Below are positions 5,102 through 7,902 of a DNA stretch of 64,000 nucleotides, piece after piece (within the stretch, counting starts at the first letter, position 1; the number at the start of each line of letters is the position of its first letter). Location: NCBI GenBank assembly GCA_016873805.1, contig VGVZ01000006.1, forward strand, positions 62,001-126,000. The letters run 5' to 3'. The notes below the pieces were generated by a model. That model was not told where the DNA came from. It did no database searches and saw nothing but the letters and a program-made list of their open reading frames with translations. The position numbers and the translations under genes are program-made. The DNA is from Ignavibacteria bacterium (GTDB lineage Bacteria; Bacteroidota; Ignavibacteria; UBA10030).

Positions 5102-5860
5102 TCAGATCACACCGGCAAGCGACCGCAGTCCGTTGATCTCGGTGGCCGTGAGATACCGCCACTTCCCGCGTGCCAGTCGCTCGGTAGTGATCCCGCAGAA
5201 GGAAATCCTATCAAGTTTCTTTGTCTCGTACCCCAATGCCTCAACCATCCGTCGAATAATCCGATTACGTCCCTTCACCACCGTCACGACAGCTTCGAGT
5301 CGCCGCGTGCCGGGAAGCACCTCCACACGCTCCGCTTTCGCCTTGCCGTCATCCAGCAATACGCCGCGACGAAGCTTCTGCAGCGCGAGATCCGTAATCT
5401 CTTTGTCCACCCGTACATGGTACACCTTCTCCAACCCTCGGCTCGGGTGCGTCAGCGCATGGGCGAGCTCACCTTCGTTCGTGAACAAGAGCACACCGGT
5501 CGTATTCCGATCGAGCCGCCCGACGGGGTAGATCCGCTGCTTTTGCTTCACGTAGTCCATAACCGTCGTTCGACCCCGTTCGTCACTCATCGTCGTGATA
5601 CAATCTTTGGGTTTGTTCAAGACGATGTAAACATGCTTCTGCGTGAGGGAAACCGGTTGACCGTGGACCGTCACTCGATCCCTACCGGGTCTGACTTGCA
5701 CCCCGAGCTCGGTAATCGTTTTTCCGTTTACTTTCACCGCGCCGGAAAGAATGAGCTCGTCATTCTTCCGTCTCGAGCCCTTCCCGGCCATCGCCAGGAA
5801 TCGATTCAACCGAATAGTTTCTTTATGAATGTCTGAACTCTTTGTTTCCATGCTTGCCAT
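5102..5860 (-). CDS. 16S/23S rRNA pseudouridine synthase, RsuA/RluB family
   Basis: Isomerises a specific uridine of ribosomal RNA. An N-terminal S4 RNA-binding domain (RLNRFLAMAGKGSRRKNDEL) is followed by the catalytic domain with VGRLDRNTTGVLLFT, whose Asp is the catalytic residue of this family; length (252) is normal. The start region overlaps the end of scpB by 55 bases, with candidate ATGs at 5860 and 5851 and no clear ribosome site for either. The scpA-scpB-rluB arrangement is common in bacteria, which supports an RluB-like role, though RsuA and RluB are hard to separate by eye. Confidence 0.9.
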   Translation of the reverse strand: MASMETKSSDIHKETIRLNRFLAMAGKGSRRKNDELILSGAVKVNGKTITELGVQVRPGRDRVTVHGQPVSLTQKHVYIVLNKPKDCITTMSDERGRTTVMDYVKQKQRIYPVGRLDRNTTGVLLFTNEGELAHALTHPSRGLEKVYHVRVDKEITDLALQKLRRGVLLDDGKAKAERVEVLPGTRRLEAVVTVVKGRNRIIRRMVEALGYETKKLDRISFCGITTERLARGKWRYLTATEINGLRSLAGVI

Positions 5861-7182
5861 CGCGACGTTGACCGTTGTTCACCGGCGTCCTGCGGTTCGA
5901 GGACCGTCGGCTCTTCGATGCTTCTTTCAATCACGCTCTCCTCTGCAAAAGGTCGGTGGAGCAGACTCTGCTCGTCCGCAGGAATCGATGCGCGTGCAGC
6001 TTCCATTTCTTCATGCTTCAGCGGTTCGACTTGCGATAACTGATCGAGCTCTGCGCTGCGTTTCACAGGGCCGAGCGCCGAGTCGGACAACGCCGGCTCG
6101 ATATCTGTTTCCTTTTGCTCCTCCAGAGCTTCGAGCTGTTCGGTGGGTGGTGGAGCCGGACTTGTCTCCGGTTCAAATGAGATGAAGGGGCTTTCAACAA
6201 CCTCCCTCACCTCGGTCGGCGGCAGAAACGGGGGTAAAGGAACCGTCTGATCAATTGCCGTAGCCGATGAACTGGACGGCGGAAGGATATCAGCGAAGGA
6301 ATTGTTGATCTCCCCGACTTCAGCGACTCCGGGCACACTCACATCCTGCTGCTCGACCGGTTTCTTTGGGTGTGACGGCGCGACAAACATCTCAGTTTGG
6401 TTTTCCGGGGGGCGCAGCTTGATATCACGGGGGCGCTTTTTCGGAACGATCTGAACGGTCTCATCCATTTCGGGCTTCCGCTTCGGGATATGTGGAAGCC
6501 GTGATTTGAAATCTTCCGCTTCCTTCTTCGCCTTTTCGGCGGCCTGCTGCGCTTCCAGCATCCGGCGTTCGGTCTCGAACTGGCTCTCGCCGAGGATTTC
6601 CTCGATCTCACGCGGGCGCGGCAAATCCGTTACGTTGTTCAAACCGAAATGCATCAGGAACTGTCTTGTCGTCCCGTAGAGAAGCGGCCTTCCAACCGTG
6701 TTGGCCCGGCCTGTAATCGTGACGAGATCTTTCTCGAGAAGCGACTTCAGCACGTAGTCACAATTGACCCCGCGGATCGCTTCGATTTCTGGCTTCGAGA
6801 TGGGCTGCTTGTATGCAATGATCGCCAGTGATTCGACGGCCGACTGGGAAAGTTTTCGCCTCGATTGTTCCCAGCTCAACAAACCAATCCACTCAGCATA
6901 TTCTTTACGCGTTGCGAATAGATAGCCCCCACCGATGTTGATGATACGGTACGGACGATCTGCAGATTGATACTCTTCATTCAACATCGCCACGGTGCGC
7001 TCAATCTCGATCGGGTCCAGATCGCGCTGTTCCAGGCCGCTCGCCGATTCACCATAGAGGACGCGAATATCCTTAACGCTCAAAGGTTCGTCGGCGGAAA
7101 AAATCAGAGCTTCGAGAAGACTCTTCAACGTCGTCGGAATCTGGATTGCCCGCTTCTCTTCGATGGCTTTCTGCTCTTCCAT
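5806..7182 (-). CDS. scpB: segregation and condensation protein B with long C-terminal extension
   Basis: ScpB is the winged-helix (kite) subunit that dimerises and binds ScpA in the SMC condensin. The core is residues about 15-195, with AVESLAIIAYKQPISKPEIEAIRG and a GRPLLYGTT hairpin typical of the family. Usual length is about 180-250; here 458. After the core come a charged helix (about 200-228), some 210 residues rich in Pro, Glu, Ser and Thr that look disordered, and a final WQAWKQRVQTFIKKLFG stretch that forms an amphipathic helix with Trp, Val, Phe, Ile and Leu on one face and Lys/Arg on the other. The start lies 3 bases after the scpA stop. Confidence 0.93.
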   Translation of the reverse strand: MEEQKAIEEKRAIQIPTTLKSLLEALIFSADEPLSVKDIRVLYGESASGLEQRDLDPIEIERTVAMLNEEYQSADRPYRIINIGGGYLFATRKEYAEWIGLLSWEQSRRKLSQSAVESLAIIAYKQPISKPEIEAIRGVNCDYVLKSLLEKDLVTITGRANTVGRPLLYGTTRQFLMHFGLNNVTDLPRPREIEEILGESQFETERRMLEAQQAAEKAKKEAEDFKSRLPHIPKRKPEMDETVQIVPKKRPRDIKLRPPENQTEMFVAPSHPKKPVEQQDVSVPGVAEVGEINNSFADILPPSSSSATAIDQTVPLPPFLPPTEVREVVESPFISFEPETSPAPPPTEQLEALEEQKETDIEPALSDSALGPVKRSAELDQLSQVEPLKHEEMEAARASIPADEQSLLHRPFAEESVIERSIEEPTVLEPQDAGEQRSTSRWQAWKQRVQTFIKKLFG

Positions 7183-7185
7183 GTC

Positions 7186-7902
7186 TTATGCCGGTGCCTT
7201 CATCATCGATAGTTCTCCAAACGGCTCATGCTGTCGAACCAGGATTGTCTTGGCTCGAATAAGTTCCAGCAAAGCCAGAAACGTCACCACCACACGGATT
7301 TTTTCTTCCATCTCGGCGGTGAGTTCTGCGAACGTCGCTTCCGATCTCTTGGTAAAGAACTGCCGGATAAACTCAAGTTGCTGATCGATGGTGACTTGCA
7401 GTCTGATAATCTCGTGGACAAACTTCTTCGGCATGCGATCCATCGCAAACTTGAACGACGCAATCAGATCGAACAACGTGACGTCTCTCAGAAGATCTCC
7501 GTCATCCTGCTGAGGCATGATCTTCTCGTCATGATCGAACGATCCTCGCAGAAAGATCTTCCGGCGCTCCGATTCCATCTCGGAGATTTCGCCGGCGAGC
7601 TCTTTGAACCTCTTGTATTCGACCAATCGCTTGATGAGGTTGGCCCTCGGATCTTCTTCTTCCTGCTGACCGGGTTCGGGTGGAAGCAGCAACTTGACCT
7701 TGATCTGCATCAACTCTGCCGCCATGACAAGAAATTCTCCGGCTACCTCGAGATCGAGCGACTCCATATAGTGGACGTAGTCGAGAAACTCCCGCGCAAT
7801 GCGCGCAATGGGAATGTCGTAGATATCCAGCTCGTCTCTCTTGATGAAAAAGAGAAGCAGATCAAGCGGGCCTTCAAAATCTTGCAGTTTTACGGTGTAC
7901 AT
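7186..7902 (-). CDS. scpA: segregation and condensation protein A
   Basis: ScpA is the kleisin that bridges the SMC heads and binds ScpB in chromosome segregation. The 238-residue protein opens with the family signature FEGPLDLLLFFIKRDELDIYDIPIA and ends with a small winged helix (VVTFLALLELIRAKTILVRQ). The ATG has GGAGAT about 8 bases upstream. It sits 18 bases after trpS and 3 bases before scpB, so the three are probably one transcript. Confidence 0.96.
   Translation of the reverse strand: MYTVKLQDFEGPLDLLLFFIKRDELDIYDIPIARIAREFLDYVHYMESLDLEVAGEFLVMAAELMQIKVKLLLPPEPGQQEEEDPRANLIKRLVEYKRFKELAGEISEMESERRKIFLRGSFDHDEKIMPQQDDGDLLRDVTLFDLIASFKFAMDRMPKKFVHEIIRLQVTIDQQLEFIRQFFTKRSEATFAELTAEMEEKIRVVVTFLALLELIRAKTILVRQHEPFGELSMMKAPA

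Follow-up and report, generated by a model that had tools for sequence, protein, structure and literature searches.

What might a long flexible arm with a helix at its tip do on a subunit of bacterial condensin? The question was raised by the scpB gene in a 64,000-nucleotide stretch of Ignavibacteria bacterium DNA, the whole of which is called the window here. An earlier note on positions 5806–6600, which run from about residue 195 of ScpB to the stop codon, had described a 250-residue disordered tail beyond a normal ScpB core, with a charged helix and a long Pro/Glu/Ser-rich linker. The tail was said to end in an amphipathic helix that could tether the Smc–ScpAB complex to the membrane or to a partner protein. 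In the following, the last 18 residues alone are referred to as the tail.

The scpB locus

Pfam and TIGR profiles identified the 458-residue product as an ScpB protein with the tandem winged-helix domain (PF04079, 162 bits against a cut-off of 27.4; TIGR00281, 115 against 89.2), and it was the only ScpB match in the genome. The core was normal, as the earlier note had it, with the Pfam domain SMC_ScpB matching residues 22–189 at E 8.7e-48. The gene is adjacent to scpA, and the Smc partner is encoded in the same genome, on contig C8 (1038 bits). Downstream lies a gene for an RsuA/RluB-type pseudouridine synthase, for which the name rluB is used here. The features of the locus are listed in Table 1.

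Table 1. Features of the scpB locus and of its product, in window coordinates.
Feature	Position	Strand	Basis
scpB, kite subunit of Smc–ScpAB condensin, 458 aa	5806..7182	-	ORF; PF04079 E 8.7e-48
ScpB core (Pfam SMC_ScpB), residues 22–189	6616..7119	-	Pfam match
Charged helix, residues 190–228	6499..6615	-	AlphaFold2; conservation in 26 f1 proteins
FKSRLPHIPK conserved motif, residues 225–234	6481..6510	-	FKSRLPHIP in 30/30 f1 proteins
Linker, residues 235–440, Pro/Glu/Ser-rich	5863..6480	-	Low pLDDT and low identity
C-terminal amphipathic helix, residues 441–458, RWQAWKQRVQTFIKKLFG	5809..5862	-	AlphaFold2; 37/37 aligned tails; codon-position constraint
scpB 3' end / rluB 5' end overlap, 55 nt	5806..5860	-	ORF coordinates
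rluB (name used here), RsuA/RluB-type pseudouridine synthase, downstream of scpB	5102..5860	-	PF00849 and S4; TIGR00093
scpA (kleisin), upstream of scpB	7186..7902	-	PF02616 E 8.3e-40

A variable linker between conserved ends

ScpB sequences were collected from 61 genomes, 32 from the family of the window (f1) and 29 from five other families of the same order, and a match was found in 59 of them. Of the 62 loci read, three duplicates (L001, L061 and L062) and one locus in which ScpB was cut by the contig end (L015) were omitted from the counts. This left 37 C-termini from families f1 and f5 (30 and 7, respectively) and 21 from families f2, f3, f4 and f6.

The structure of the window ScpB was predicted with AlphaFold2 from an alignment of 26 rows, all taken from the 30 complete f1 proteins. 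The mean pLDDT of the model was moderate at 58.6, and it was used for local secondary structure only. It contained the charged helix of the earlier note, at residues 190–228, followed by a linker with a pLDDT mostly below 50 (low-confidence stretches at 255–317, 323–331, 335–340 and 342–436) and a terminal helix at residues 441–457, whose blocks had pLDDT values of 92 and 90. A second fold, of an f5 member, was based on six of the seven f5 proteins, leaving out L059, which has no recognizable N-terminus. It gave the same terminal helix at residues 326–343, with weak confidence (pLDDT about 54).

Sequence conservation followed the same division. Mean majority identity among the 26 f1 proteins was 78% in the core, 85% for residues 190–224 and 95% for residues 225–236; it fell to 21% over residues 261–440 and was 80% over residues 441–458. 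The distance from FKSRLPHIP to the tail ranged from 103 to 317 residues in the 30 f1 proteins, with a median of 166.5. The linker thus varies freely in both sequence and length, while the tail does not. A 250-residue disordered tail is too wide a description: residues 190–236 are for the most part helical and strongly conserved, the unconserved and predicted disordered part starts at about residue 255–261, and conservation returns in the last 18 residues.

Two further features of the extension were observed. The sequence FKSRLPHIP(K) stands just after the charged helix in all 30 f1 ScpBs, with a PHIP variant in two of the seven f5 proteins, and perhaps represents a second binding site. In one f5 ScpB (L045), an acidic unit of 20-odd residues is repeated in tandem within the linker almost without change, which suggests that this linker grew by duplication.

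The 37 tails share the consensus RWxxWKEKIQGFIKKLFG. All seven positions on the predicted face (442, 445, 449, 452, 453, 456 and 457) are hydrophobic in every one of them, and away from this face a hydrophobic residue is often found only at position 444 (9/37). Basic residues occupy position 446 in 37, positions 448 and 455 in 36 each, and position 454 in 34 of the 37 tails; position 447 is acidic in 28 (Glu in 27, Asp in one). K446 and F457 are invariant, and there are near-invariant Trp, Lys and Phe residues. The observation of the earlier note was confirmed: its terminal amphipathic helix was recovered both in the model and in the face kept by all 37 tails.

Distribution of the tail among relatives

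When C-termini were read to the stop codon, the motif ended all 30 f1 and all seven f5 proteins, and was found at the C-terminus of none of the 21 ScpBs from f2, f3, f4 and f6. A profile built from the 37 tails matched 51 of 98 genomes of the order: 31/32 in f1 and 20/22 in f5, against 0/5 in f2, 0/15 in f3, 0/3 in f4 and 0/21 in f6 (0/44 in total). Fourteen of the 51 matched genomes lie outside the rows of the profile, namely 13 f5 genomes, counted by match to the tail profile, and G015, in which ScpB is seemingly split between contigs. The one f1 exception, G010, had no ScpB match at all, and the two f5 exceptions are 71% and 79% complete. The search for C-terminal amphipathic helices in homologues that the earlier note had proposed found the tail in 51 of the 54 f1 and f5 genomes. 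The note's interpretation would have been refuted by a tail absent from, or not helical in, all close relatives, which is not what was seen: besides its presence in these genomes, a helix was predicted in the window protein and, weakly, in the f5 member. The interpretation was partly supported.

In a scan of the phylum, the profile matched 10 of 395 genomes, all of them f1 or f5. Among 294 genomes of the class, it matched 38 f1 or f5 genomes. A further 10, from other families, were matched weakly, with best E values of 0.0044 to 0.044; among these weak matches are some very short open frames and a stretch that looks internal to a 1060-aa frame. Within the window's own genome, the only other match had an E value of 0.6, and the idea of a common sorting tag was discarded. 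A tree of the ScpB core with 85 rows placed f1 and f5 in one clade (support 88/88), which would suit a single gain of the tail but is not decisive.

Constraint on the ScpB reading frame

The last 18 ScpB codons lie almost wholly within the 55-nt overlap with rluB, an arrangement absent from the earlier note. The tail might then be a by-product, with selection maintaining the start of rluB and the same bases being read as ScpB only incidentally. Indeed, the tail Trp codons (TGG) read as NTG in the rluB frame and supply ATG, GTG or TTG at one site at least in all 37 overlaps: at both sites in 27, at the first only in six and at the second only in four. In the window, both yield ATG codons.

The two frames can be told apart, because each third base in the rluB frame falls on the second position of a ScpB codon, so that selection on rluB alone should make ScpB second positions vary most. 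This was not observed. Pairwise differences over ScpB codons 442–458 were 0.227, 0.215 and 0.425 at positions 1, 2 and 3, while over the 30 codons past the scpB stop, where only rluB is encoded, the same positions gave 0.178, 0.637 and 0.235; the pattern flips at the stop codon. An entropy version of the analysis likewise pointed to the ScpB frame as the constrained one, and pairwise amino-acid identity in the overlap was 0.67 in the ScpB frame versus 0.44 in the rluB frame. Moreover, in the 10 genomes with one site unable to start rluB, that site still encodes Trp in eight. From the codon-position differences, the ScpB reading frame is the one under constraint, and the conservation of the tail is not a by-product of rluB; we regard that explanation as highly improbable. 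Dual use of the Trp codons, as ScpB residues and as rluB starts, is possible judging from the codons, and in some genomes rluB could start further upstream.

In two loci (L046 and L050), the rluB frame is open for about 650–660 nt before the stop codon of scpB is reached; this stretch falls within the ScpB linker and reads as Gly/Arg/Lys-rich sequence. This could be a long overlapping N-terminal extension of rluB, or chance.

Amphipathicity of the tail

The helical moment of the window tail was 0.55, a value reached by 414 of 20,000 shuffled sequences (about 2%), which is modest by itself. Mean moments were 0.62 for f1 tails and 0.59 for f5 tails, and 0.14 for the ScpB ends of the other four families (21 proteins). 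FtsA belongs to a membrane-anchored class of proteins, and FtsA tails were used as the in-genome comparison because no MinD was found above the cut-off in the 61 genomes. The FtsA tails of the same order had a mean moment of 0.58 (29 proteins). The net charge of the ScpB tails is +4 to +5, that of the window tail being +5. A D score of 0.944 × moment + 0.33 × charge, with a threshold of 1.34, does not discriminate on its own: among 46 rough gene calls from the window, seven exceeded 1.34 through their charge, with moments of 0.06–0.27. That the tail goes beyond chance rests mainly on evidence across genomes: the face kept in 37 of 37 tails, third codon positions that are about twice as variable as the others, and the 14 matched genomes outside the profile.

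A probable membrane anchor

An amphipathic, Trp-rich and basic segment at the C-terminus, on a flexible linker, is by its sequence the anatomy of a membrane-targeting sequence. Membrane binding by the tail is what we infer: the last 18 residues of ScpB are probably a membrane-targeting amphipathic helix of the MinD, FtsA and RocS kind on a long disordered tether. The points in favor are the hydrophobic face (37/37) with basic residues at 446, 448, 454 and 455, the helix predicted with a pLDDT of about 90, the FtsA-like moment, the alignment of the consensus end with the E. coli MinD anchor, the presence of the tail in 51 of 54 genomes of the two families versus 0 of 44 elsewhere in the order, and the encoded Smc. 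Against an anchor, the residue identity of the last 18 positions is high for lipid binding, at a mean of 76%, though 75% was also measured over 15 residues of the FtsA tails in f1 and f5 (11 proteins). The MinD likeness is short and not significant on its own, and E. coli FtsA does not match. Some of the Trp conservation may be due to rluB starts, as many as 2% of shuffles reach the moment of the window tail, and the f5 helix has a pLDDT of about 54.

As an anchor, the helix would sit in the inner-leaflet surface, its Trp, Ile, Phe and Leu side chains in contact with the lipid interior and its Lys and Arg with the phosphates. A single such anchor would be weak. Published work describes the MinD helix as weak, with membrane binding requiring two or more copies (PMC6803595), and RocS as needing more than one C-terminal helix (PMC11500499). 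Other papers describe two ScpB bound to one ScpA in two characterized complexes from other species (PMC7055376), and ScpB as a stable dimer in a study of Bacillus subtilis Smc (PMC1188057). Because ScpB is a dimer, anchors would act in pairs; with two ScpB per ScpA, each Smc–ScpAB ring would carry two, allowing reversible binding like that described for MinD and RocS. Thanks to its flexible arms, the ring could act on DNA and still stay near the membrane.

Taken further, the condensin ring itself could be a nucleoid–membrane tether in this lineage, with two ScpB anchors per Smc–ScpAB, loop extrusion from a membrane-bound motor, DNA pinned to the envelope and possibly positioning like that by Noc, RocS or Min. 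We consider this extended proposal tentative and rather doubtful.

The strong residue conservation makes a protein partner the main rival, and a serious one: the tail would be a short linear motif that folds on a partner, for example a protein of the divisome or replisome, a ParABS protein or Smc, tethering condensin through the disordered arm. The high identity would fit such a motif, with K446 and F457 invariant and Trp, Lys and Phe nearly so, and a helix-forming tail carried by a disordered linker is likewise a typical form of protein-binding motif. On the other hand, the tail profile gave no significant match to PDB chains, the best (E 1.2) being to an internal stretch of a Smc fragment, and a net charge of +4 to +5 with a broad aromatic and aliphatic face is typical of binding to anionic lipids. 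We consider a protein partner possible but somewhat unlikely.

The charge of +5, and the activity of ScpB in DNA-bound complexes, would also fit a basic helix that binds DNA or RNA instead of lipid, giving the ring more affinity for DNA. A simple DNA-binding tail would not be expected to conserve seven large hydrophobic residues, two of them Trp, on one face, and the acidic residue persists at 447 in 28 of 37 tails, so that this option appears improbable.

Comparison with known systems

Among the closest known systems is RocS of Streptococcus pneumoniae, described in PMC11500499 as a chromosome-partitioning protein anchored to the membrane by a C-terminal amphipathic helix, with more than one copy needed. 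RocS combines a DNA-binding domain of its own and a coiled coil in one protein, whereas the ScpB helix sits on a condensin-ring subunit and a disordered linker. Noc, a well-studied nucleoid occlusion protein, also tethers DNA of the chromosome to the membrane by an amphipathic helix at one terminus (PMC8429893). Its helix is N-terminal and CTP-switched, and Noc is a ParB relative, unrelated to ScpB.

MinD and FtsA share the short C-terminal amphipathic helix, in the case of FtsA of the same order with a similar moment, but in their case the helix is carried by division proteins with different folds. The Escherichia coli MinD anchor, translated from NC_000913.3, ends in KKGFLKRLFGG and the ScpB consensus in KIQGFIKKLFG, where QGFIKKLFG aligns with KGFLKRLFG. 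With the tail profile, E. coli MinD gave E values of 1.8 for the whole protein and 0.09 for its last 30 residues (database size Z 4300), a short match that is not significant alone, and E. coli FtsA gave none. Although ParA/MinD-like ATPases were common, no MinD exceeded the family cut-off in any of the 61 relatives; ParB was found in 56 and FtsA was above the cut-off in 57. Having ParB and FtsA with no recognized MinD leaves room for a possible positioning role.

A literature search on MukB with cardiolipin, and excerpts of a review from 2025 on DNA and membranes (PMC12029325), yielded nothing on Smc at the membrane. Searches of the open-licence literature turned up no report of a ScpB whose tail binds membrane or is amphipathic. 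Canonical ScpB has the same core and the same place beside scpA as the window protein, but in the four remaining families of the order the tails of the 21 ScpBs are mostly acidic, with the mean moment of 0.14 given above.

The usual view of bacterial condensin is that of a soluble machine bound to DNA. A conserved, membrane-anchor-like helix on one of its subunits would link loop extrusion physically to the envelope, and the 18-residue tail would offer a simple handle on the role of membrane tethering in chromosome folding and segregation. The helix can be transferred to laboratory ScpB or GFP, so the question is testable even though the host organisms appear to be uncultured. Set beside RocS, Noc, MinD and FtsA, the window ScpB appears to be a known protein that has acquired a known kind of device.
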